DNA of 64,000 nucleotides. Source: Mycoplasmataceae bacterium (GTDB lineage Bacteria; Bacillota_I; Bacilli_A; Mycoplasmatales; Mycoplasmoidaceae). Position 1 is the first letter of the stretch. Each line of letters starts with the position of its first letter. Of this stretch, positions 12,257 to 50,041 are shown piece after piece. The translations under genes and the position numbers were made by a program. Below the pieces are notes generated by a model. It made no database searches. It worked only from the letters and a program-made list of their open reading frames with translations, and was not told where the DNA came from. Where the stretch lies: contig JAITDP010000001.1 of assembly GCA_031282505.1 (NCBI GenBank), positions 1-64,000 on the forward strand, written 5' to 3'.

Positions 12257-14047
12257 ATGTTTAAGTTATTGAAGCTAGTTAAGCCTATTGATAAAGTATT
12301 AATAACTTTATTAATTTTTATACTTTCTGCTCAAGTTTACTTCGATTTATTTTTACCAGATCGAATTCAGGACATATTGTCTTTATGGAAAAGTGGAGTA
12401 CCTAATGCATATCAAATTTGAATAAACTTTCTTTATGCATTAGGTTTTGTTTTTGGAAGTTTTTTCTGTTTGTGTGCAACTATGAAACTTAGTTCATCTA
12501 TTTCAAATGATTTAGCATATGAAATGAGAAGAAAAATCTTTTCACATGTTAACTCATTAAGTACAAAAGAAATTGATTCAATTGGTGTACCAAGTTTAAT
12601 CAATCGTAATACTGGTGATGTTATGAAAGTTGCACGTGGATTGGAATTTACACTTAAATTAGGTATTGCAGCACCTGGTATGATGATTGGTGGAATTATT
12701 AAAGCTGTTGTTGATAGTTCTAATACTTTTGCATCAACTTTTGCTGTTGCATCATTTAGTTTAGCAATAGTATTTACATTAATAATACTACTTATTTTTT
12801 TATCAGTGATAGGGCCAATCGTTATTTCCCGAATGAAAAAATTAGCTTTTTTTTCTGATGATTTAAATGAAAAAGCACGTGAAAATATTACAGGTGTTCG
12901 TGTAATTAGAGCATTTGATGCTCAAAAATTACACATTGCTTCAACTGATAAAATTAGTGAAAAAATTTATCGAAATAATTTTGCTTTTTGTTTTTGAGAT
13001 ATGGCATTTTCATTTATTGCTTCGCTTGTTAATTATGTAACAATTACAATTTATTGAATTGGTGCATATTTCATATTTAAAGGCGAAGCCATTACCATCC
13101 CTGTTTTAATTAAATTTACACTATTGTCTAATATTATTATTTATGCATTTGTGCGTTCAACAATGCTTATCTTCTTTTTACCTTCAGCAATTGTTTCAGC
13201 TAAACGTATCAACCAAGTATTAAAACTTAGTTCTTCTATTGTTTCTGGAAAAACTAAAAAAATCAATCTTAAAAATAAGTATGCTATTGAATTTACTAAT
13301 GTAAACTTTAAAGTTAATTCTACATCTGAAAACATTCTTAGCAACATTGATTTTAAAATTAAACCTGGTAAAACATTAGCAATAATTGGTGCAACCGGTT
13401 CTGGTAAAAGTATGATTGCAAAATTAACGGCACGTTTATTTGATTCTTCTAAAGGAACGATTAAAATCTATGGTAGAAATATTAAAGAATACGATCTTAA
13501 TTTTTTGCATGAAACAATTGGATTTGCTCCGCAAAAAGCATTTTTGTTTAATACAACAATTCACAATAATGTATTAGCTAATATTGCTGATCGAGGATAT
13601 TCTGCTTATTTACAAGATCAAATAGTTAAAAAAGCATGTGATATAGCGTGTGCAAGTGAATTTATTAATAAATATGAAGATAAATACAATCACATAGTTA
13701 GCCAAAACTCTACCAATTTATCTGGTGGCCAAAGACAAAGAATTGCAATTGCCCGGGCAATTGCAAAAGAACCTAATATTTTAATTTTTGATGATAGTTT
13801 TAGTGCTTTAGATATGCTTACTGACAAAAAAATTAGAAAAAACATTTCTAATAATTATCGCAAAACTACAAAAATTATTATTGCTCAACGTATAAATACA
13901 ATTATTAATGCTGACAATATCATAGTGCTTGATTCTGGGAAAATTGTTGGACATGGTACACACAAATCATTAATGAAAAGTTGCAAAGTTTACCAAGAAT
14001 TTGCACACAGCCAATTATCCAGAAAGGAACTAAACAATGGAAAATAA
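12257..14047 (+). CDS. heterodimeric ABC exporter, degenerate-site half (YheI/TM287 type)
   Basis: A 596-residue fused TMD-NBD exporter half. Six membrane helices fill residues 1-320. The NBD has Walker A GATGSGKS near residue 378, Q-loop GFAPQKAF, signature LSGGQRQR near 488 and Walker B ILIFDDSFSALD near 508. The catalytic Glu after Walker B is Asp, and the switch His is Gln (IIIAQRINTI). The same two substitutions define the degenerate half of TM287/288-like heterodimers. The partner overlaps by 11 nt. Probable substrates of the family include drugs and lipids; none is indicated here. TATAAT at 12243-12248 ends 8 nt before the ATG. Confidence 0.85.
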
Positions 14048-15800
14048 AAAAATAAAAGTTGGATTGTGACATTTAATTAAGTTTTATTCATCGCACAAAT
14101 GACCATTCATTTTTTTAATTATTACAAACATCATTTATGTAAGTGCTGCTTGTATATTTCCGGTATTCTTAAAATGAATTATGGATGATGTTGTAAAACT
14201 TCAATTACTCCCAGATGATGGCGATCTATTTAATAAAATTAGTTATTTTTCAATTTCAGCTCTTGGTATTGCTTTCATTTCTGTACTAGCAAGCATTACA
14301 GCATCAATTTTAGGTGTTTATTGTGATGTAAGTTCTTCACGTAAAATTCGTTTACAAATTAGTCAAAAATTCAACAGTATCCCATTGAAAACATATGATA
14401 ATAACACAACAGGAAATATGTTAAGTTATATGACTAATGATGCAACAAGTGTAGAAGAAAATCTAACAGCATCAATTTTTGGTTTATTTTCAGCTGTGAT
14501 CATGGTTTTAGGTATTGTTGTATCTATGTTTATTGTTTCATGACAATTAGCATTAAGTTGTTTGGCGTGTATTCCTGTAACATTTGGTATTATGTTTTTT
14601 ATTTTGTTCAAAACACAAAAATATTTCAAAGCTCAACAAGAAGATTTAGCAAGAGTAAATGGAAAAGTTGAAGAAATATTTTCTGGTAATGAAATAGTTA
14701 CACTATTTAATTTACAAAAACACGAAAGCGAAAACTTTATTCATTCTAATAGAAAATTAAAAGAATCAAACCAAAATTCTTCATTCTATGGAGGCTTACT
14801 AATTAGTTTATTTAGTTTTGCTTCAAACTTTAGTTATTGTATTGTTGTTTTAGTTTGCGCATTCTTAATGCTTTATGGAAGCGATCCTACAAGCTGATTA
14901 GTACTATTCCCTACATTTGTTCTTTTTGTCTCATTACTAAATGTTCCATTATCTAAATTTGGACAAGGTATGTCCTCATTACAAATTGCAGTTGCTTCAT
15001 ATGAGCGTATACAAACTTTTTTAAGCTCAGAAGAATTGACTGAAGACATTCATGGTATTAAAATCAAAAAAATCTCTGGAAGGGTTAATTTTAATAATGT
15101 TAGCTTTTCTTATGCTCCTGATCGTCAAATTATTAATAATTTTTCAATTAAAATACCAAGTGGAGCAAAAGTTGCTATTGTCGGTCCAACTGGTGCCGGT
15201 AAAACAACAATCGTTAATTTATTAATGAGGTTCTATGATATTGAAAAAGGGGCAATTGAAATTGATGGTGTTGATACAAAATTAATGACTCGTGATTATT
15301 TATCATCATTGTTTAGTATGGTTTTACAAGATCCGTGGTTATACAAAACAACCATTATGGAAAATATTCGTTATACAACAAAAAATGTTGATGACAATAA
15401 AGTTAAAAGCATTTGTAAATTAATTAATTTAGATCACATTGTAAAATCATTGCCAAATGGCTATGATACAATTGTTGATGATAAAATTAGTTTAAGTTCT
15501 GGCGAAAAGCAATTAATAACAATCGCTCGTGCATTGGTTCACGATGCACCAATTGTAATTTTAGATGAAGCAACAAGTAATGTGGACACTAAAACAGAAC
15601 AAGTTATTCAAAACGCAATGGTTGAATTAGTTAATAATAAAACTGCATTCATTATTGCTCATAGATTGAGTACAATTAAAAATTCTGATATTATTATTGT
15701 AATGAATAATGGTAGCATTGTTGAGTATGGAAATCATTATGAACTACTTGAACGTAAACAATTTTATGCCAATTTATACAATTCACAATTTAGTGAATAG
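14037..15800 (+). CDS. heterodimeric ABC exporter, catalytic half (YheH/TM288 type)
   Basis: A 587-residue partner of the preceding exporter half. About six membrane helices lie in residues 15-300. The NBD has Walker A GPTGAGKT near residue 382, Q-loop MVLQDPWLYKTTI, Walker B IVILDEATSNVD with the catalytic Glu, and switch His in IIAHRLSTI. The signature is LSSGEKQ rather than LSGGQ. This is complementary to the degenerate residues in the partner, so one ATP site is canonical and one is not, as known for TM287/288-type pairs. An SD-like AGAAAGGA precedes the ATG, as expected for an internal operon gene. The TMD contains several TGA-Trp codons. Confidence 0.87.
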
Positions 15801-15845: not shown

Positions 15846-18761
15846 ATGGCTGATACTGTCAACGATAATAGCCCTACTGAAATTAATCCCCGTCCAATCC
15901 GAGTTGTTCAAACTATGGGTGACATCACTTTTACTGATTGAATTTGGTTCGGAGCGTTTGCTTTTATTGTATTTCCAATAATCCTATGATGCCCTGTTCC
16001 TGCTGTAATTGGAGCCGGAATCCCAACATATGCTGTACGTGCTGCTATTGCGTCACCGTTTATTATTATTGGTTGTCTTTTAGCATTTGCACAATCAAAA
16101 ACAAATGGAAAATTTAGATGACGATTCTGACGAGGAATAAAATTTATGTTTAGTCGTAAGTTTTTTTCCCCACTTGAACTTAAACAAATATATGAGATTA
16201 AAGAAATAAAAGATAATCACCTGCATTACAACTCTTTACTTAATGAAGGAGTTATATCTGTATATCGTATTGAAGGTTTTGACCCTACATTACTTTCTAA
16301 TTCTCAATTATCAAGTATTGTCAATGACTTAGGTCAATTTTTCTCTGTTAATCTACGATTTAAAATTGTTGCAACGAGAATTAATTATGTTATTCCACCA
16401 AAAGATATTCCATTAAAAACCGATCATTATGGAATAAATTTTGCTCGTAATCGATATTTAGACAGAATTGACCAATTAAATAAAAATGTAAGTCTTAAAC
16501 AACAAGCTTACTTTTTGATTATTGAAGGACCATCTATTGCAAAAAACGAAGATAATAGTAATCTAATAACTTCTCCGTTGACTGACGCACACTTATCAGT
16601 TCGTCCAGCTGTTGCAGAAGAAGTAGCACAAGTTTTTAATGAAATTTGAGGAGATGGTTTTAATTTTGCAGATCCTGCACATAGCAAAGTAGCTGCTATA
16701 GCTTTCGATAAAAAAATTATTAAGTTTACTAAAAATGATGGTAAACATAAATATATGTCAATCTTATCATATAACTCAATTCCAGAAGTTGCAACTCTTG
16801 GATGATTAGGTCATATTTTTAACACTGACCACTTTTCTTTAATTATGGATGTATCTCCAATGTCTCCACAAGATGCAAGTAAGTATATTTCTAAATTAGA
16901 TACAGCAACTGAATCTTTGATGCAAACAAATTGATTCAGAAAACGTGCTGCTGATCAAGAACGTAAAAGAATTAGACACGTTCGTGAATTAACTTCAGCA
17001 GTTAATAATGAAATGGTAGAAGGCAACATTGGATTAAAAGAAGTACAATTTTATTTAATATTCTCTGATGACACAAGAAGAGGATTGCAAAAAAGAGTTG
17101 ACGAATTCAAACGACAATTATCTGCATTTAATGATGGCTGAGTATTGTTTGATTGTACATATCTGCAAAAAGATGCAATATTTAATACACGTCTTCATGA
17201 TATTCCAGTTCTTCAATACAAGAGTGGTGTTTCTTCTACTAAAAACAACTATTACGCTGGACATGAGAAAAAACACCAAATGCACTCTTCTATTAATAAG
17301 CTAACTCTTACAAATGCAATTGATCACAAAATTTTAACAACATCATTGGGATTATCTTATCCATTCTATTCTCGTGCTTCTATTGCTGATGCATCTAGTT
17401 GGTTTCGTGGTTTCCAATTAGATCAAGCATCTGGTGATTTAAGTCCATTCTTTGCTTCTTATTGAAAAAAGAATGAACTATATAACTCATTTAACCGTTT
17501 CTATCAAGGTCGTAACGGTTCTGGTAAATCATATACTGCTGATTTAGATGTAGTATGTGATCGTTTGGATGATAAGTTTATTATTTCTGTTGACCCAAAA
17601 CCTGAGCGTGTATTTTTAACAAAAAACTTAGGAGGTGAAAACCTTTTGATTGGTTCAACAGAAAAAGGTGCTTCATTCATTAATATCTTTGATATATTAG
17701 TTGTACCTAATAGTGATTCAGAAAGACAAAACCCACTAACATCTCAATATCAAGCAAATCTAACTTCTATTTCAATACTTTTATCATTAGATGTTAACAA
17801 CCCTAACGACAAAGTAGTTCTTTCGTGTTTTAATGATGTTCAAGTTCACGTTTATGAAAAAATTAAAAAAATTACACAAAAAACTAACTTCACAAAACTT
17901 TCTCCACATCACTTCCCATTAATGAAAGATTTTTATGAAATTGCACAAAAATTCTATCGTAGTGAAAAAAACCCTGAAACAAAATCTTCATATAACAAAC
18001 TAATTATTTTGATGAAAGAACATGCTGTTGGTATTTCAGCACCACTATTTAATAATTACACAAATGTTGACTGATCAAAAAACAGAATGTGAAACCTTAT
18101 CGTTAGAGATATTGCATTAAATTTTGGTAATAAAAACATTCTTGCCTGTTGAACAATTAACATTATTCGTGTTGCAAGTGCCTTTTTATATGCAAATCAA
18201 AAAGTTGCGCTATATATCGATGAGTTGCACTTGATTCACAACATTAATGGTGTTCTTCAACGTCTTGATGAATTTGCACGTGTTGACCGTTCATTCAATG
18301 GAGCACTATGTTTAATCAACCAAAACTTTAATTCAATTCGTGGTGACTCTGATCCTAAGAAAAAAGAATATTATGAATCTATATTTACAATGTCACAATA
18401 TAACATGTTCTTTACAACGGGCGAAGAAGATGTAGATTTCCTTGTACAAATGCTTGAGGGTTCAGGAGAACCATTAAGTCAAAGTGAACGTAACTTTGTT
18501 ACAAAAGCTGGTATGGGTAAAGCATTGATGGTTATGAATGCTTATGATAGATACCGTATTCAATTCGATATTTCCTTTTGGCGTGAATTGTGAGAAGAAG
18601 ATTTAGAACAAATCTATAAAGATTCAATTGCTGCTGAAGAAAAAGCAACTAAACCAACTTATACCAAAACAAAAACTGTTAAGAAGACTAAAAAGACAGT
18701 GAAACATGTTGCAAAAAAATCTATTAAAAAGCCTACTACTCACAAAAAGAAAGGTAAATAA
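15846..18761 (+). CDS. VirB4/TraE-type conjugation ATPase with fused two-TM N-terminus
   Basis: A 971-residue protein assembled over about 15 TGA-Trp codons. Residues 1-100 hold two membrane helices (WIWFGAFAFIVFPIILW and ASPFIIIGCLLAFA) and an Arg/Trp-rich loop, like VirB3/PrgI-type subunits fused to VirB4. Residues 100-520 form the N-terminal VirB4 domain. The motor domain has Walker A GRNGSGKS near residue 555, ISVDPKPE, and Walker B VALYIDELHLI near 787, with LINQNF sensor region. The last 60 residues are Lys/Thr-rich. VirB4 ATPases power type IV secretion and conjugation at the membrane; mycoplasma ICE elements carry a relative. It leads an operon with a VirD4-like gene 2 nt downstream. 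No relaxase or integrase is nearby. Confidence 0.85.
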
Positions 18762-18763
18762 AA

Positions 18764-20725
18764 ATGGACACTACATCAGAAAAACAAAATAAAGGTAGAT
18801 ATTTAGAAAATCCAGTAGTATACTGATTAAAAGTTATTGGTAATGTCTTAAAATGAATCTTGTTTCCATTTGTATTAGGAAGCATTATTTCTACACAATT
18901 ACTTAAACTAATTTATGTATCACTTGCACACGTTTCTAAATATGCAAAAGAACCAAAACATATTCACTTAATAATCTTTTACTCATTTCTTTTAGCGATC
19001 TTTTTGTGTCTTGGATTAATCGCTATAAATACCTATCTTCAAATTGTTGCTATCCATGTCCATATTTGATTGGACAGCCATTTGCCATTAACACCAGAAT
19101 GAGTCGATGAGCTTATTGAATGATTATTCTTTCACATTTTATTGCTTGGTACATTATATGTAGTAACTTTAACTTTGATTGCAAAGATTACTTTATTTAT
19201 TGTATTTAATGAACGTATTGAAAAAGAAATCATTAAATATACTTATAAAACTAAAGAACTTAATGCTTTAGGGATTAAAACAGATATGGATGATTTAACA
19301 TCTGAACATAGATATAAAACAATTTATAAATTTATTTCTTATGATTTCTTTAGAAAGGTTTTGCTTCACTATGAATTAGCAACTGTTAATAAAAAAATCC
19401 ATGATAAAAACACTGTTGGATATCTAGTATCAAAAAATGATAAAATCTTTTACTTATATGATTATTGAATTTATCATACTGTTTTTATTGGCTCGCATAA
19501 TTCTGGTTTAACAAACCACGTTTTAGATTTTATAAATTCTGTTGTTAAAAATGATGCTCAATTAGTATTAATCGACAATAACGCTGATGCATTAACTTTA
19601 AATTCTTTAAGCATCGTTGCTAACAACAATGAAAAAGAATTTAACATCATTGATTTTTCTTTACCAGCAAAAGCTAATTTAATTTATAACCCTTTTAAAA
19701 ATAAAACTGCTGAACAAATAGCAAGTGCATTAGTATGTCTTGTTTTACAAGAGCTGGATAACAATGATAAACAATTACTTCGTTATACAATTACATCAAT
19801 AATGAACCTAATGATAGATAATGGTGTACAAATGAATTTTAATACCATTTTGAAACATATGAATGTCTCATATATAAAAACTACTTATAAAGAAAAGATT
19901 AATCAATCACTTTCTTTGATTTTATTAGATAAAAATTCAACACGAGTAATTGCAATATTAAAAAAAGTAATTAGTGGTTTCTTGGTTGAATTTAAAAATT
20001 ATTTTATTGCCGAAGATTACAACGATGATAAAACTTTTAATTTTATTGATGTTTTACAACAACAAAATGCTATATATTATTTTAATATTTTTAATAAACT
20101 TTCAAGTGAAGACTATGCAAGTTCTTTGCAAAGATTAATACTTAATGATTTATCATCATCAAGCCATATTAATGAAAACGAACGTCTAAGTAAAAAACAA
20201 CCACATGTTATTACTTATGTAAAACTAACTAAATCATTATTTTTAGAGCGTTACGAAATACCTGCGCTACTTAACCTATTATCTGTTAAAAACATTGGAG
20301 TTGTATTTGAAATATCTGATTCGATTAACTTCACAAATAATGAAATTATTCCTGAATTGTTGCTTGTTTGTAAATCGTTATTTGTTCATAGAATTCTTAA
20401 TAATGAAATATTAGCTACATTCAAAAATAATGTCTTATCTAAATTATTGCCAGTTAATACAAATTATGAAGAATATGATATATTCTATAAACGATTTAAA
20501 CATTATGATGACGATGATTCTAACACAGCTTTTGCTGATAAAGCTCGTGACAAAATAATCGATCAACTATATAGATTGCAAACATCACTTTCATTTTTCT
20601 CTACTGTTCATTATGACTTCCATGCAAAAAATATAAATATTTTTGAAGCTAAAAACATCATTTATAACACACCTTTTGCAATTCCACACTTCTCTTCTGT
20701 TTTAATTGGCAATGAAAAAAAATAA
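18764..20725 (+). CDS. degenerate VirD4/TraG-like coupling protein
   Basis: A 653-residue protein with four membrane segments in residues 20-150 (two pairs), then a soluble domain. Near residue 238 it reads VFIGSHNSGLTNHVLDFI, followed by QLVLIDNNADAL and FNIIDFSLPAKANLIYNPF. This reproduces the spacing of VirD4/TraG proteins (P-loop, then DPKGEL, then a strand ending in NP(F/L)). However, the P-loop GxxGxGK(S/T) is GSHNSGLT, lacking the lysine, and the DPK is DNN. ATP hydrolysis therefore seems unlikely. The start is 2 nt after the VirB4-like stop. Family assignment is an inference from domain order and context; it could be a structural relative that has kept docking but not motor function. 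Confidence 0.6.
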
Positions 20726-21077
20726 TAAAAAAAATAACCGTGTAATCGGTGATAAAAGAACTCACAATTCAAAAGATATACCATTATTTTGAAATTCAAA
20801 ACGTTATTTCAATGAGAATGTGTACCATGCAATAGCTACTTCTTGTGTTATTGCTTTTATTTTAATTGCAGCAGCGTGCGTTATAGCTTCAGCAACAGGC
20901 TTTATTGATTCTAACAATAAAAACTCTTATATGCAAGATAGATGACTAGGCTTTGCTATTCCTGGGTTTTTATGTATATTTGCAACTATTATTTGTAAAA
21001 TAAACGAAAGAAAGATTAGAAAACAAAGAATATATGATCTTGCTGCAAGCAATGGAAGAACAATTGAAATAGAATAA
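20712..21077 (+). CDS. small two-TM protein of the conjugation-like operon
   Basis: A 121-residue protein starting inside the end of the VirD4-like gene (14-nt overlap). A Lys/Asn-rich N-terminus (about 45 residues) precedes two hydrophobic helices (TSCVIAFILIAAACVIASA and FAIPGFLCIFATIIC) and a basic tail. Two TGA-Trp codons are present. Size and two-helix topology are like VirB2/pilin-like or VirB3 subunits of type IV systems, but no sequence signature supports either. It is the last gene of the operon and converges with the basic-protein gene, whose stop codon begins at the next base. Confidence 0.6.
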
Positions 21078-25802: not shown

Positions 25803-27804
25803 TTATGAACTTGAAACAGTTCAGCCAGTACTAGTAATACCACAATTTACAAACAACGTTAATGTCAGATCTGCACTATAATCACCAGTAAAATTAACCA
25901 ATCTAATAGTACCATTAGAACTAGTAGAAGAAAATTTTGTTGAGACAGTAGCACTATCAGTGGCCGCTTGTTTATCTCAATTTGGCAAACTACTAAATCC
26001 ATTCAAAACTATATCACTTAAATTTGTACAATTTAAAAAGCATTTAAAATCAATAGAAGATTGATCAGACAAAGAACCTTGTAGCGTCACGCCACCTAAT
26101 AATGTACAATTAGAAAATGCACCTTCACCAATTTTTTTTACCTTATAAGGAAACTCTATTTTTCCTTTTAGATTAGAACAACCATAAAACGCATCTTTAT
26201 TAATAATTAATGATGAACTACCGGTTGAAGAACCAATAGTAAGTCCTTCGATGTAATCACCATAAAATGCTCCTTTGCCAATCATTCGGCAATTATTTGG
26301 TATTGTAAGAGAGAGTATTTTCGTTGTTGAAGAAAAAACACTATCAAAAGCATAGTCGCAAATAGTCGTAGTATTAACATTTAAAGAACAACTAGCAGGA
26401 TAAGTTCCGCTAGTTTGAACTTTAATATATGATCCTATGCAATAATAATAAATACCACAATGAAGATAGTATATATTATCTGATGAGTATGAAATTTTAT
26501 TTACTGGATATTCGCTATTATAACTTGTTACTATACCAGTACAACCATAAAATGCACGGTTGCCAATGCTTGGGGCTTCCGTACCAGTAGTTGTAATATT
26601 TACACCGGTTAGATTAGTACAACGAGTAAAAGCATATTCACCAATAGTTACATTTGAAGTTGAACAAAAAGTCAGCACACCAGGTAGACTACTACAACCA
26701 GCAAAAGAACTATTACCAAAATTCGTAATTTTTCCAAAATTAGTTATACTTGTAAGGCTACTACATCCATAAAAAGTTCCTTCTTCTACAGAAGAAAAAC
26801 CACTACTTGGAAAGCTTAAAGAGGTTAAACTACTGCATCCCTCAAAAGTGTTTCTCTTAACAACTCAACTAGAACCTATAGTCAATTCTCCAGTAATTCT
26901 ATAGCAATCTTTAAAAGCACGATCACCAATTGTTACTGCTGTACTAGGAATAGTCAAAGTTCCAGTTAGATTCTGACAACTACAAAATGCTTCATTATTG
27001 ATATTTGTAACAGTAACTGGAATACTTAAGCTAGTTAAGCTCGAACATTTGCAAAAAGCAGTACTTCCAATACTTGTTACTCCACTAGGAATTGTCAAAC
27101 TACCAGTTAGACCAGACGAATTAGAAAAAAAAGCCCCATCCCCAATTGAAACCAAATTATAATAAGTGCCATCTGAAGATGATCATATTTGTGATGGTAT
27201 TGATAAATTATTAGCTACAAGTGAACTACTACTTGTGATAGAACAAGTACGAACATCACCAGCGTTACTTCAATTACCAACTGTAATTGTACCATTATTA
27301 ACACCAAATCAATTAGAACCATCTGGTAAACCATACAATAAAGCATTTCCATAGTAAATATATCCGGTAGTAGATGTAGTGTAATTTACGCTACTTGAAT
27401 CAACGATGTTTGCTGTAATTTTATACGAAAAAGAAGAACCTGCATCAGAAAATTGATTAATTTTGTAACTTGATGGATCGAATGTCAAAACTCCACTAGA
27501 TGTTTCTAAAGTAATAGTACTAGATTGTAAACCTTCTGAATAATCAGAAATTGTATATGAAATGGTATAATCTGGAGAGGAAATTGGTTGACCGTTTAAT
27601 AAAACTTGAAGTGTTTCTGATGATATTTCTGTATTATTAGGAATATCAATATCAAAATTACCTAGAGTAAAAACTTTCTCATCCGATGGATCATCACCAC
27701 CATTACTACCACCACATTGATTTAAAAATAAAAGTGGACTTAAGACCCCCCCCAATCATAAGTGGAGTTGATAATAAAGCTAAGAGTTTTGTTTTATGTT
27801 TCAT
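25803..27804 (-). CDS. BspA-like LRR lipoprotein 1, phase-variable (frameshifted/OFF here)
   Basis: The ATG at 27804 opens a signal peptide MKHKTKLLALLSTPLMIG. A run of eight G (27746-27753) then shifts the frame to an early stop. With seven or ten G, the frame would continue as GGVLSPLLFLNQCGGS (a lipoprotein-like LNQC) into a 666-residue protein (seven-G version). The body has an N-terminal beta-rich region (residues 30-170) and about ten BspA-type leucine-rich repeats (patterns like SLTIPSGVTSIGSTAFCKCSSLT). A YYLHCGIYYYCIGSYI module interrupts the repeats. BspA-like repeats mediate adhesion in oral bacteria and Trichomonas. The promoter carries a poly-A spacer of 15. Confidence 0.7.
27746..27753 (-). 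repeat. poly-G tract (8 G) in signal peptide of BspA-like gene 1
   Basis: Eight C on the plus strand. Seven or ten G would restore the lipoprotein frame; eight puts it out of frame, with a stop about 15 codons later. Confidence 0.85.
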
Positions 27805-27811
27805 TATCTAT

Positions 27812-27840
27812 GTTATATGTTTTTTTTTTTTTTTGTGGCA
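27812..27840 (-). promoter_or_regulatory. BspA-like gene 1 promoter with 15-A spacer
   Basis: On the minus strand: TTGCCA, then C-A15-CA, then TATAAC, then 7 nt and the ATG. The 15 A put the -35-like and -10-like hexamers 18 nt apart, close to optimal. The poly-T on the plus strand is 27820-27834. Confidence 0.55.
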
Positions 27841-27853
27841 AAAACATTAAAAA

Positions 27854-29277
27854 TTAAGAAGCAAGTTGCCAATTTGTTCCTTGACCACTTGGTAAACCTA
27901 AATTGTATAAGAAATCCAAAGTTGGTGGTTGTCACCCACCTGTAACACTTACAGTTCCTGAAGCACTTATGCCTGTAAATACGTTCACTGCATTTCATGA
28001 TGGCTGTGAAGAAAAATTATTCAAATTAATTTGGGAAAAGTTTGAACAATATCTAAAAGCATAATTCCCAATATTTGCCACTTCATTTCCAATAGTAAGT
28101 CCAGTAATATTTTGGCACCCTTCAAAAGAAGAAGCCCCAATACTTGTAACACTATTTGGAATAGTTAAACTTCCAGTTATGCCTACACAAGATTGAAAAG
28201 CATAATTCCCAACTCATTCAACACTATTAGGAATATTCAAACTTCCTGTCAAACCAACAAAATATCTAAAAGCTGCTGCGCCAATTCCTAGCACACTATT
28301 AGGAATGATCAAATCCCACATTAAACCGCTACAATCATTCGAATAATTATCAAAAGCCTGAGTTCCAATTGATATAGTATTAGAATTTATACTTAATGTC
28401 CCACTAGGATTGATACCACTTGACATGACATTACTATACTTTCCTAAACAATAGTAATACTTATTGTTTCTAATGTAATACACATTATCTGATGAACATG
28501 ATATTTTATGATTATGATACTCATTATTCTTATATTCTCCCATTAAGTTTTGACAACCTTTAAATATATCAGTTCCCAAACGTGCCACCTTATTTCCAAG
28601 ATATAATTCAGTGATGCCAACACAATTTAAAAAAGCATAACTATTTATTATTGTTACACTATTAGGAATAGTTAAACTACCAGTCAGTCCAATACAACCA
28701 TCAAACGCCCTCACCCCAATACTTGTCACATTATTAGGAATATTCCAATCGCCAGTCAAACCACTACAAGATCTAAATGCATAATCCCCAACAATTGTTA
28801 CGTTATTAGGAATTATTAACTTTCCAGTCAAACCACTACACCATGTAAATGCATAATTACCAATACTTGTCACACTATCAGGAATGGTCAAACTTCCAGT
28901 CAAGCAAACTTGATCAACCGCAACACCACTCAATTGAGAAAAACTACTAGTATCTAAGTATGTCAATGGTAAAATAATACCACCTAAACTAGAAAATTGT
29001 ATTTTTTTAGGAATAATTAAATCTTTTGCAAAGTATAAAGTGCTACTAACGACATGGCAACCTATATATTTCTCGTCAACATCTTGATCAGCAACAATAG
29101 ACACCACACCAGTATCATCGTTTGCATGTCCCTTTCAATTAGTTCCATTTTCGTTTCCGACATAGTTGCAAGGATCGGATTCTTTACCACATTGATTTAA
29201 AAATAAAAGAGGAGCAAACCCCCCCCAATCATAAGTGGAGTTGATAATAAAGCTAAGAGTTTTGTTTTATGTTTCAT
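27854..29277 (-). CDS. BspA-like LRR lipoprotein 2, phase-variable (frameshifted/OFF here)
   Basis: Same signal peptide start as gene 1 (MKHKTKLLALLSTPLMIG), followed by eight G (29219-29226). The long frame needs six or nine G (FAPLLFLNQCGKESD...); with nine the product would be 474 residues. The body has about 12 BspA-type repeats (for example SLTIPDSVTSIGNYAFTWCS) and one YYIRNNKYYYCLGKYSNV module near the middle. The C-terminus (SGQGTNWQLAS) and the preceding 60 residues are nearly identical to gene 3. TGA encodes Trp in the tail. The promoter is the same as for gene 1 but with only seven A, predicting weak transcription. Confidence 0.7.
29219..29226 (-). repeat. poly-G tract (8 G) in signal peptide of BspA-like gene 2
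   Basis: Eight C on the plus strand; six or nine would be in frame with the lipoprotein body. Confidence 0.85.
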
Positions 29278-29284
29278 TATCTAT

Positions 29285-29305
29285 GTTATATGTTTTTTTG
29301 TGGCA
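29285..29305 (-). promoter_or_regulatory. BspA-like gene 2 promoter with 7-A spacer
   Basis: The same TTGCCA and TATAAC elements as the gene 1 promoter, but with seven A between them (29293-29299), so the spacing is only 10 nt. This is predicted to be inactive or very weak. Confidence 0.5.
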
Positions 29306-29318
29306 AAAACATTAAAAA

Positions 29319-31399
29319 TTAAGAAGCAAGTTGCCAATTTGTTCCTTCACCACTTGGTAAACCTAAATTGTATAAGAAATCCAAAGTTTGTGGTTGTCAC
29401 CCACCTGTAACACTTACAGTTCCTGAAGCACTTATGCCTGTAAATACGCTCATTGCATTTCATGATGGCTGTGAAGAAAAATTATTCAAATTAATTTGGG
29501 AAATGTTTGAACAACTATAAAACGCATAGCTTCCCATGATTTCCACTTTATTTCCGATAGAAAGCCCACTAACACTATAGCAACTCAAAAAAGCAAAACT
29601 TCCAATACTCACTACATTATTTCCAATAGTAAGTCCAGTAATTTTGTTGCACCCTTCAAAAGAAGAAGCCCCAATACTTGTAACACTATCGGGAATGTGT
29701 AAACTACCACTCAATCCAGAACAACTACTAAAAGCCGCATCTCTGATATTTGTGACATTATTTCCAATAGTAAGTCCAGTAATATTTTTGCACTGTTCAA
29801 AAGAAGAAACCCCAATACTTGTAACACTATCTGGAATCGTTAAATTATTGGAAATGTTAGAACAACCTTTAAAAGCATAATTTTCTATACGTGGCACGTG
29901 ATTTCCAATAGTAAGTCCAGTAATTCCTGTACACGAGCAGAATGCTGAAGCTCCAATTTTTGTAGTGGTATTAGGAATAGTTAAATTTCCCCCTAAATTT
30001 TGACAATATACAAACGAACTCACACCAATACTTATAACACTATCAGGGATATGTAGAGTTCCACTTAGATCATAGCAGTCATAAAAAGCCCGATCGGCAA
30101 TCACTTTAGTACTAGAATTTATACTTAATGTCCCACTAGGATTAAACCCAGATGAAGTAACATTTTTATACTTTCCTAAACAATAGTAATTGTTATCGCT
30201 TTTAATGTAATATACATTATCTGATGAAAATGATATTTTATAATTAGGATATCCAGATGACTCACTTCACTCTTCTAGTAAACTAGTGCAACTTAAAAAT
30301 GCATATTGACCAATAATATCTACTCCTGTCCCTATATGAAGTGTAGTAATGTTACTACAATTTCGAAAAGCATAATCTCCAATACTTGTAACACTATTAG
30401 GAATGGTTAAACACTCGGTTACACTATTGCAGTTATCAAAAGCATAACTTCCAATACTTACCACTTTATTTCCAATAGATAATCCGATAATGTTGGAACA
30501 ACTTTGAAATGCATAATTTCCAATAGTTTTAACACTATCAGGAATAGTTAAATTTCCTGTCAAATTATTACAGCCTTTAAAAGCACTTGGGCCAATTCCT
30601 AGCACACTATTAGGAATAATCAAATCCCCTACTAGTAAACTACATCCAGAAAAAGCGGCACCTCCAATCGCTTTGGTATTAGAATTCAAAGTTAATGTTC
30701 CACTAGGGGGTTCACCCGTATCGACAACGTTACTATACATTCCTAAACAATAGTAATAGTCATCATTTCTAATGTAATACACATTATCTGATGAATATGA
30801 TATTTTATGATTAGGATACTCATCATTTTCTTGTTCTCCTATTAAGTTTTGACAGCCTTTAAATACATAAGTTCCAATAACTTCCACCTTATTTCCAATA
30901 GATAATTCGGCAATATTAGTACATTTTAAAAAAGCATTACTATCTATAATTGTTACATTGTTTCCAATAGTCAAAGTCCCACTTAATTTATTACATCCAC
31001 TAAATGAACTAGTCCCAATGCTTGTCACACTATTAGGAATAGTTAAACTACCACCTAGTCCAATACAATTAAAAAAAGCAAGTGCAGAAATATTTGTCAA
31101 CGGAACAATCCTTCCATCACTAGTTCGAATGTGTTTTGGAATTATTAAGTCATCAGCTACATATGTTCTACCACTAGCAATAGAAGCTTTACCATCACTT
31201 ATTGAAATCGTAAGCAAGCTTGTTGAGTCACTAGGGTGCCCCTTTCAATCACTACCTGTATCGTCCCCAACATAATTAGATGGGCTATTGTCATCATCTG
31301 GTGAATTGCCACATTGATTTAAAAATAAAAGTGGAGTTAAGCCCCCCCAAGTAAGATAGGAGATGACAATAATGCCAAAAGTTTAGTTTTATGTTTCAT
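29319..31399 (-). CDS. BspA-like LRR lipoprotein 3, phase-variable (frameshifted/OFF here)
   Basis: The start MKHKTKLLALLSSPILLG is followed by seven G (31342-31348), which bring an immediate stop. Eight (or five) would give GGLTPLLFLNQCGNSPDDD and a 693-residue protein. It is the largest of the three, with about 18 BspA-type repeats (for example SLTIPNSVTSIGTSSFSGCN) and two YYxxYYCLGxY modules near residues 190 and 390, suggesting an internal duplication. TATAAT lies 7 nt before the ATG. The gene begins 32 bp downstream of the clpB stop on the same strand. Its 3' end is nearly identical to gene 2. Confidence 0.7.
31342..31348 (-). repeat. poly-G tract (7 G) in signal peptide of BspA-like gene 3
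   Basis: Seven C on the plus strand; five or eight would be in frame. With seven, GGA is followed directly by TAA. Confidence 0.85.
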
Positions 31400-47398: not shown

Positions 47399-50041
47399 AT
47401 GTATAAGTATGGGCAAGCCATAATTAATGGTGTACTTGATGAAATAATTTCCGGCTTAATGCATGCCGTTACTTGAATATTTCAAAAACTATTATTTTGG
47501 ATATTAGATTTCGTTTATGAATGTGTAATTTATGTTCCATTAGTCATCATAAACACTATTGCTATTATCTTCCGTTTTTTTGCTGGTGGTTTTATGAACT
47601 ATATTTTTGGTGATGGTTCACCAATATTCGACCCCAGCACAGGAAAAATTAATCTTAATTTCACCTTTGATAGCCAATTAGGACAAATTGTTTTTTATAC
47701 ATTTGTTGTGTCAGTTGTTTTATTTTTTTTCCTATATATGTTGACATTTGCAACTGGCGGTCTTAAAGACGATGATGGCAACCCTGCAAAGGGACCATTT
47801 GCTCATTTTAAAGCAATGCGTTGACCAGCTTACATGCTTATGGCTCTTTTTCTATTGCCATACTTGTTTGTATTCGGGGATTATTTAATGCAGCAGGTGT
47901 TAATGTATTTTAATGATTCCGTCTCAACAGCATTCACCAGCGATGACATAAATAACTTGCGTAATAATTTTTTACCATTATTTTATGGTTTCTCTAACAA
48001 TTTCCAAATGGCAACCATTAATATTAATGGATCAAATTTTGCAACTATTACTGTACTTACTAACTTACAAGCAAATCTTAAAACAATTCAAGATTATTTA
48101 GCTAATAATCCAACTGACTCTTGACAATTTGAAAATCAAATTGATGTATTGCAAAATAATATTACAAATATTTTGTTATATTTAAACTCAACATCATCAA
48201 CTGATTATGCCACTGTTTCTACAATAATTAACGGTCTTCAACCTAATGATTATTTGTCAAGCGATAATGCCGCTGCTATCTTAACTGTAAAAACTCACCT
48301 AAGTGATTTCTACAACATTTTTGAATCTAGTTTAGGTTCATCATATTCAAGCTTAAATGATAGTTTTTATAACTCTCAATGAGATATTATTTTATCAGGA
48401 ACTGATTTATCAAAAGCAACAATCCTTGCTCCTGTTAAAGCACTTACTGATAGTTGAAATGATACAACAGATTTAGCAACATTGCATACTTTTGGTTATG
48501 ATACAATCAATCAATTAGCCAATGGTTATAATCCTGATGGTTCAGCTACTAGATTTCTTTCACTAAGTTCAATTTATTATAAAGTTCCTGGATACCAAAA
48601 TTTTCCAATGGTTGGAATAATCTATTCAGCTGCTACTGGTGATCCTAACCCATACAACTGAACAGATCCATTTGGTTCTGGTTTTGCAAAAAAAGCAGAT
48701 GTATTACGTTGAGTTTTAACAACTTTTGCTGTTTGAGGTATGGTAATAATCGTTTACACATATTGTTATGACACTGTTAAACGTATATTCTATTTGATTG
48801 GTTATTGAATTATTGGTTTCTTGCAATTAGCAAACGGTCTTAATAATTCTCGTAGTGTTGATAAATGATATAAAGATATGTTCAACCGTTGATTAGGAGT
48901 TATTGTAGTAATGGTATGTTTTGAAATTGCATCAATTTTAGTTGCAATATTACAACCATATATTGTTAGTGGACTAAGTGTTTATTCACAATATAATCTT
49001 AGTGATACAAAAATTCTTGTTAACATAGGAGTTATTCTATCTTTAGAAGCAGGATATCAAGTTGGATTCATGGTGTATGACAAATTCATGAATGAAAAAG
49101 GAAGTGGTAGAAAATCTAATTCATATTCTTCTGGCCCACAACTTGTTAGTAGTGGTAGTGGATTGTTTAGTTCTGCTTTATCAACAGCTGAATATTATGG
49201 AACAGGTGGTGTTGTTAAAGATGCGTATAAAAAAGTTAATGATGAATACATTGAATATTGAAAAGGAAAAAAGGATACTAAATTGGCAAGGGAAAATGCA
49301 GCATGAGGACAAGGCATAAGAATTGCTGATGCTAAAACAACACAACAAAAATTAAATTTATTTGGTTATGATTTAGAAAAAGGTGTACATATTAGACGTG
49401 GTGCTAAAAGAGATGCTGATCTACACCCAAGTATTAGAAATATTCGTCACCATGTTGGTGATATACCTACTCGTGGAGCTGGTGCTGTAAATATGAGAGT
49501 ATTACAAGCTGGTGTTGCTGAAGGATTAATACCTCCACCAGCACATATTACACCTCCTGCTGGTGGTTGAGTTCTTCCCGCAAACAATCAAGCGGCTGCT
49601 GCACCAGCACCTGCTAATGCACAACAACCAGTTCCAGCAGCACCTGTTCCATTCGTGGCACCGAATAATGCACCGTTAATACCAAACCCAATAAATGTCA
49701 ATAGAAGAAATTCTACAGGCAATATAAATATCAATGCTCCTGTTAACCCAGCATTTGCACATCCAAGACCAGCAGGCGCTGCTGTACCACCACCTGGAGG
49801 GGTTGTTCCACCACCAATTGCCCCAATTCGTCCTCTTGGACAACCACAAAGAGCAAGACGTAACTCATTTGGAAGCCCAAATCCAAACGCTAGTGTTAGA
49901 GCTGTTGCTGGTAATCCAATGCCACCAAGAGTTAATCGTGCTGCACCAGCCCCAGGTTCTCCATTATCAGCACCACGTCGTCCTAGAGCTGGTGGTGGTC
50001 GTAGAATGTCTAGTTCATCAGACTCAGGATCTGGAGATTAA
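47399..50041 (+). CDS. VirB6/TrbL-like conjugation channel protein with Pro/Ala-rich tail
   Basis: An 880-residue protein. Three N-terminal helices (LLFWILDFVYECVIYVPLVI onwards) and a fourth (IVFYTFVVSVVLFFFLYML) are followed by a 250-residue extracytoplasmic region, then three to four helices (RWVLTTFAVWGMVIIVYTY, IFYLIGYWIIGFLQLA, VIVVMVCFEIASILVAIL, ILVNIGVILSLEAGYQVGF). This order matches the ICE transmembrane protein of mycoplasmas (Mbov_0396 type) and VirB6/TrbL. The last 250 residues are cytoplasmic, with a Pro/Ala/Arg-rich end (for example VVPPPIAPIRPLGQPQRARR) and repeated RRNS(T/F)G. It lies 26 kb from the VirB4-like gene. The assignment is from topology and context. Confidence 0.6.

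Follow-up and report, generated by a model that had tools for sequence, protein, structure and literature searches.

A VirD4-like protein that has lost its catalytic motifs, encoded beside an intact VirB4-like ATPase in a clade of Mycoplasmataceae

The window analysed here, a 64,000-nucleotide stretch of a Mycoplasmataceae genome (contig JAITDP010000001.1), carries at 18764–20725 on the + strand a gene for a 653-amino-acid (aa) protein, which we refer to as W (its genome is G000, other G numbers are genomes and L numbers are loci). W appears to be a former type IV coupling protein (T4CP) of the VirD4/TraG kind in which the loss of catalysis is strongly supported by its sequence, and we give a probability of roughly 60% to the reading that it has turned into a pseudo-ATPase, kept as a receptor or scaffold of a reduced type IV machine which is powered by VirB4. 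A T4CP counts by definition as an ATPase, and the field of type IV secretion has yet to settle if substrates can be received independently of the VirD4 motor. A clade which keeps the VirD4 body and sheds catalysis stepwise beside an intact VirB4, hydrolysis and then binding, would be a natural separation-of-function series. The gene is one intact open-reading frame (ORF) from the ATG at 18764 to the TAA at 20725 when TGA is read as Trp (translation table 4). Under table 11 the same frame meets six in-frame TGA stops, a reading we dropped because the neighbouring genes also require TGA as Trp.

Loss of the catalytic motifs

A preliminary description of this DNA, made from the letters alone, had held that the soluble domain of W keeps the VirD4/TraG layout whilst its P-loop is GSHNSGLT and its DPK is DNN, and each of these points is borne out. 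The sequences VFIGSHNSGLT, QLVLIDNN and YNPF are all in place (here and below, features are on the + strand unless noted): motif alignment puts the degenerate P-loop at 19490–19513 and the retained YNPF motif at 19685–19696, with the strand QLVLIDNN between them at 19559–19582, where Asp271, a conserved alignment column, is retained at the DPK/DGK position. At the P-loop Lys position W has Leu249 (codon TTA, 19508–19510), its fourth loop residue is Asn, and there is no lysine anywhere in the loop. A sequencing error behind this substitution was rejected: at minimum two bases must change to turn AAA or AAG into TTA, and relatives have V, V and I there. A compensating lysine at P-loop position 4 was considered as well; three sister proteins have it, W does not.

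The losses extend beyond the P-loop. In the former Walker B strand HVITYVKLT (20204–20230; model strand 481–488) the alignment places K487 and L488 where DE is expected, so that W reads YVKL in place of hhDE, and the motif-III Gln, aligned with the GIQEKAG stretch of mobile-type T4CPs, has become Ser518 (20315–20317). A search of the whole protein found no other G-x4-GK[S/T] and no hhhhDE, so the second segment with an intact P-loop that would have counted against the preliminary description is absent. The suggestion that W cannot use ATP in the usual way is strengthened by these losses, since the Walker B and the conserved Gln have gone together with the lysine; the Walker B and motif-III changes, the overlap with a downstream gene and the clade-wide nature of the trait (all below) had not been part of that description. 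In TrwB, the substitution K136T removes ATPase activity and transfer (PMC7431656), and because this one change suffices there, W probably does not act as an ordinary coupling motor. A literature search for a degenerate VirD4-type T4CP found none, though subscription papers were mostly beyond its reach.

Evidence for a VirD4-type body

Searched alone, the 653 aa protein gave nothing significant in Pfam, NCBIfam or the sequences of the PDB, a Pfam PF02534 search of the genome gave zero matches, and neither viral contigs nor a first single-sequence scan of the genome contigs yielded relatives. The relationship is visible only through the family alignment and the fold: a profile built from 14 relatives matches DotL/IcmO (E 2.9e-9), and other family members match TrwB_AAD_bind, TraG-D_C and SXT_TraD. 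An AlphaFold2 model built on eight sequences (predicted local distance difference test, pLDDT, 77.8; predicted template modelling score, pTM, 0.69) has the RecA-like (HerA/FtsK) fold of the nucleotide-binding domain, and the comparison with TrwB that the preliminary description had proposed thus returned a TrwB/HerA-type structure. Foldseek matched the model to HerA, TrwB and DotL, and VIA-align gave TrwB a Z score of 24.7 (350 residues, root-mean-square deviation 3.4) and DotL 23.8. HerA, VirB4 and DndH give structural scores similar to TrwB, so the fold by itself places W in the HerA/FtsK superfamily only, and its assignment to VirD4 draws on the sequence profile and the gene context. A further trait of T4CPs is present in the hydrophobic N-terminal segments within residues 21–152 (18824–19219, from hydropathy; model helices 17–58, 65–104 and 111–168), which would form the membrane anchor. 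The secondary structure of the model also shows a helical insert, residues 316–432 (19709–20059), which stands in place of the TrwB all-alpha domain and may correspond to it.

Distribution and order of the losses

Nine genomes carry the protein, all from a single subclade of the genus (the core clade), mostly directly 3′ of VirB4. None of the nine retains the Walker B DE or the motif-III Gln, five of them (W, G043, G054, G039 and G048, the last with no P-loop at all) lack the P-loop Lys, and GK[T/S] is kept by G040, G046, G047 and G051. Three of the lysine-less relatives read GxxK[TS]G[VI]T, with Lys at P-loop position 4. This position-4 lysine (GxxK[TS]G; L035, L038, L034, L039, L043) is common to lysine-less and lysine-keeping core members, W having Asn there. 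Among the T4CPs of mobile type, those of this genus (G037, G038, G045, G055, G064) and that of G083 from another genus keep GK[T/S], DE and Gln alike, and Walker A and Walker B are present in all other T4CPs of the order search whose motif regions can be read. Other genomes of the genus hold mobile-type conjugative sets (L045–L048, L049, L112, L113) with mostly intact T4CPs, of which G055 has two different kinds.

In the tree of VirD4-like proteins the lysine-less W, G043, G054 and G039 form one clade (support 97/99), and in the VirB4 tree G048 is sister to the lysine-keeping G051 (98/100), apart from that group. As G048 groups with a lysine-keeping genome away from the relatives of W, the P-loop appears to have been lost at least twice, after the hydrolysis motifs, with some deep branches open.

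The VirB4 partner and other type IV genes

The VirB4-like gene (971 aa, 15846–18761) ends 2 nucleotides before the gene of W, and its product, as had been described, is an intact ATPase with Walker A GRNGSGKS and Walker B LYIDELH; it matches NCBIfam VirB4_plasma with E 1.5e-60 and 205 bits, below the model cut-off of 590. Both Walker motifs are also intact in all core relatives where they are readable, and VirB4 is presumably the sole motor here. In G051 a TAG stop splits the VirB4 gene into two ORFs (L040 8008–8174), possibly a broken copy or an assembly error. Downstream, the gene of a small two-transmembrane (two-TM) protein (20712–21077; start ATG 20712, TTG 20706 also possible) overlaps the 3′ end of the pseudo-ATPase gene and completes the operon. 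The three operon proteins had no PADLOC match, and a promoter and terminator scan of the locus found signals at or below chance level.

A presumed part of the channel is encoded apart, at 47399–50041, as a VirB6-like polytopic membrane protein of 880 aa, with a second copy at G000:C7:47016. Its homologues occur in exactly the 15 genus genomes with a VirB4 match, and they adjoin or lie near VirB4 in L036, L037, L044 and the mobile-type sets. The two-TM protein is found in 10 of 11 core genomes and a small VirB2-like protein in nine of the 11, including the window genome, where it is on another contig; VirB4, VirB6-like, two-TM and VirB2-like genes thus largely co-occur. They do not form a single contiguous mobile element with VirB4, VirD4 and VirB6, the parts being on several contigs.

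The VirB6-like proteins of the core genomes have multiplied (seven match pieces in G048) and grown to as much as 2953 aa (L044 2–8863, L119 6397–14000, L118 4760–9733, L120), reminiscent of Rickettsiales with their several enlarged VirB6 proteins.

Conservation and alternative explanations

In the core clade the pseudo-ATPase changes much faster than VirB4, with identities of 15–41% vs. 41–68%, whereas in the mobile-type sets the two genes are similar, at 49–79% for the T4CP vs. 56–74% for VirB4. The pN/pS ratio (nonsynonymous to synonymous differences) is 0.61–0.86 for the pseudo-ATPase against 0.18 in an active pair, values which are crude owing to synonymous saturation. Such fast change would suit a surface that tracks changing substrates and would suit relaxed constraint equally, and the data do not separate the two.

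Several observations weigh against a retained receptor or scaffold. At saturated sites, the pairs involving W reach pN/pS 0.81–0.86, a sign of weak constraint that is compatible with slow decay, no copy was detected in the core genomes G035 and G049, and in G039 the gene sits elsewhere than beside VirB4, so the gene may be dispensable. The syntenic spot in G049, inspected in case its copy had relocated as in G039, is empty; at genome completeness of 74–93% the absence from G035 and G049 may mean dispensability or an assembly gap. The alignment is at ~20% identity and could be off by one or two residues at Walker B. The ~83% complete window genome yielded no other T4CP, and an intact one could be absent from its assembly. 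The rapid evolution and missing copies would follow if the system, like ComB and Ptl, needs no coupling protein, with the VirD4 gene surviving as a remnant in slow decay that by chance is still open, T4SSs without VirD4 being known (PMC12857230). We regard this as unlikely, as the ORF is full-length in nine genomes despite saturated synonymous sites, where the chance of 653 open codons is ~10^-18, the fold columns Asp271, Tyr308 and Lys314 are retained while the catalytic columns vanish, and the order VirB4, pseudo-ATPase, two-TM gene is preserved in most core genomes.

It is rather improbable that W remains an active ATPase or nucleotide binder with a deviant P-loop, in which a substitute residue, or VirB4, which within a mixed ring would complete the site in trans, takes over from the lysine. 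RecA-like rings do use trans residues (PMC11154593), and both the position-4 lysines of the three lysine-less relatives and the GK[T/S] of the four lysine-keeping members fit such an arrangement, but W lacks any loop lysine, G048 lacks the loop itself, and hydrolysis is unlikely whatever binds because the Walker B Asp/Glu is lost in all nine. Least credible, with very little probability, is a still-mobile integrative and conjugative element (ICE) of the mycoplasma type in which a coupling protein from another locus is taking over: the relatives of VirB4, VirB6 and VirD4 are ICE-type genes (PMC12857230, PMC6030558) and the genus also holds mobile-type sets, but the core genes are dispersed on the chromosome among housekeeping neighbours that differ per genome, VirB4 identity broadly tracks that of IleS, and G000 yielded no second T4CP. 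Given this scatter and the agreement with IleS, the core genes seem to be a domesticated set passed on vertically and not a mobile one. Mycoplasma ICEs are not known to use a standard relaxase, and the lack of one would therefore carry little weight.

Proposed role in a reduced type IV machine

A pseudo-ATPase retained as receptor or scaffold is consistent with the dead motifs, the intact ORFs and the conserved gene order taken together, and a structural or substrate-docking subunit, the fate that the preliminary description had raised, is the best-supported explanation of W. W probably descends from a T4CP that belonged to a conjugative element of mycoplasmas; its hydrolysis motifs (Walker B, motif III) would have been lost in the ancestor of the clade, and its nucleotide binding would have followed. 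The pseudo-ATPase now most probably sits in the membrane as a ring, probably hexameric, or as a platform beside the VirB4 motor and perhaps in contact with it; its helical domain could recruit or gate substrates, and VirB4 would provide ATP hydrolysis for a reduced, chromosomally fixed machine of VirB2-like, VirB4, VirB6-like and two-TM proteins. The substrates are perhaps effector proteins or surface structures directed at a protist host. The picture that emerges is of a minimal T4SS-like apparatus that became fixed in bacteria without a wall, probably associated with termite gut flagellates. More tentatively, ATP-independent, fast-evolving pseudo-coupling proteins might make up an undescribed class of T4SS subunit, the substrate receptor of a machine driven by VirB4 alone, which mycoplasmas associated with flagellates would have derived from a conjugative element and fixed in order to deliver into, or make contact with, the protist host.

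Relation to known systems

Like TrwB/TraG/VirD4 and DotL/IcmO, W has N-terminal membrane segments, a RecA-like nucleotide-binding domain with, in the model, a helical insert, motifs of the DPK and YNPF regions and a gene beside VirB4, but unlike them it is without the Walker A Lys, the Walker B Asp/Glu and the motif-III Gln. Mycoplasma ICEs hold the same parts, namely CDS5 (TraG/VirD4), CDS17 (VirB4) and CDS16 (VirB6-like), and are the probable ancestry (PMC12857230, PMC6030558), whereas the set of W is chromosomally fixed, scattered and apparently vertical with a seemingly catalytically dead coupling subunit, the mobile-type T4CPs of the genus having kept all motifs.

Helicobacter pylori ComB, Bordetella Ptl, Brucella VirB and Bartonella Trw operate with VirB4 and lack VirD4 (PMC12857230), and the system of W resembles them in having VirB4 and, by its motifs, no functional VirD4 motor; these systems have no VirD4 gene at all, whereas that of W retains the pseudo-ATPase, in a wall-less monoderm. 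EccC and EssC of type VII secretion offer another parallel, as their FtsK/HerA-type domains without Walker motifs still take part in secretion, and regulatory or gating roles have been proposed for the degenerate FtsK-type domains of EccC (PMC11154593). In those proteins, however, one chain joins the dead domains to an active one, whereas W appears wholly dead and its presumed active partner is the separate VirB4.

Organism and surroundings of the locus

The window genome is that of a mollicute reading TGA as Trp, ~0.5 Mb assembled and 83% complete, with division genes similar to those of the pneumoniae group (MPN316-type FtsA). The accessions of its relatives fall inside the range of a set of termite gut metagenome-assembled genomes in which Mycoplasmatales are listed among the protist symbionts (PMC11257099), and 'Ca. 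M. girerdii' has a relative found inside the cytoplasm of a parabasalid from a termite (PMC10557491); we infer from this that the organism is probably a symbiont of termite gut flagellates.

Downstream of the two-TM gene lie convergent genes on the opposite strand, including ftsZ, ftsA, rsmH and mraZ. Directly 5′ of the VirB4 gene is an MsbA-like ABC transporter pair (12257–15800), and the matching pair in G040 (L118 10286–13865) adjoins a VirB2-like and a VirB6-like gene, a recurring link with type IV genes. Further along the window, at 25803–31217, three adjacent genes resemble leucine-rich-repeat adhesins (HupY/LrrG-like).
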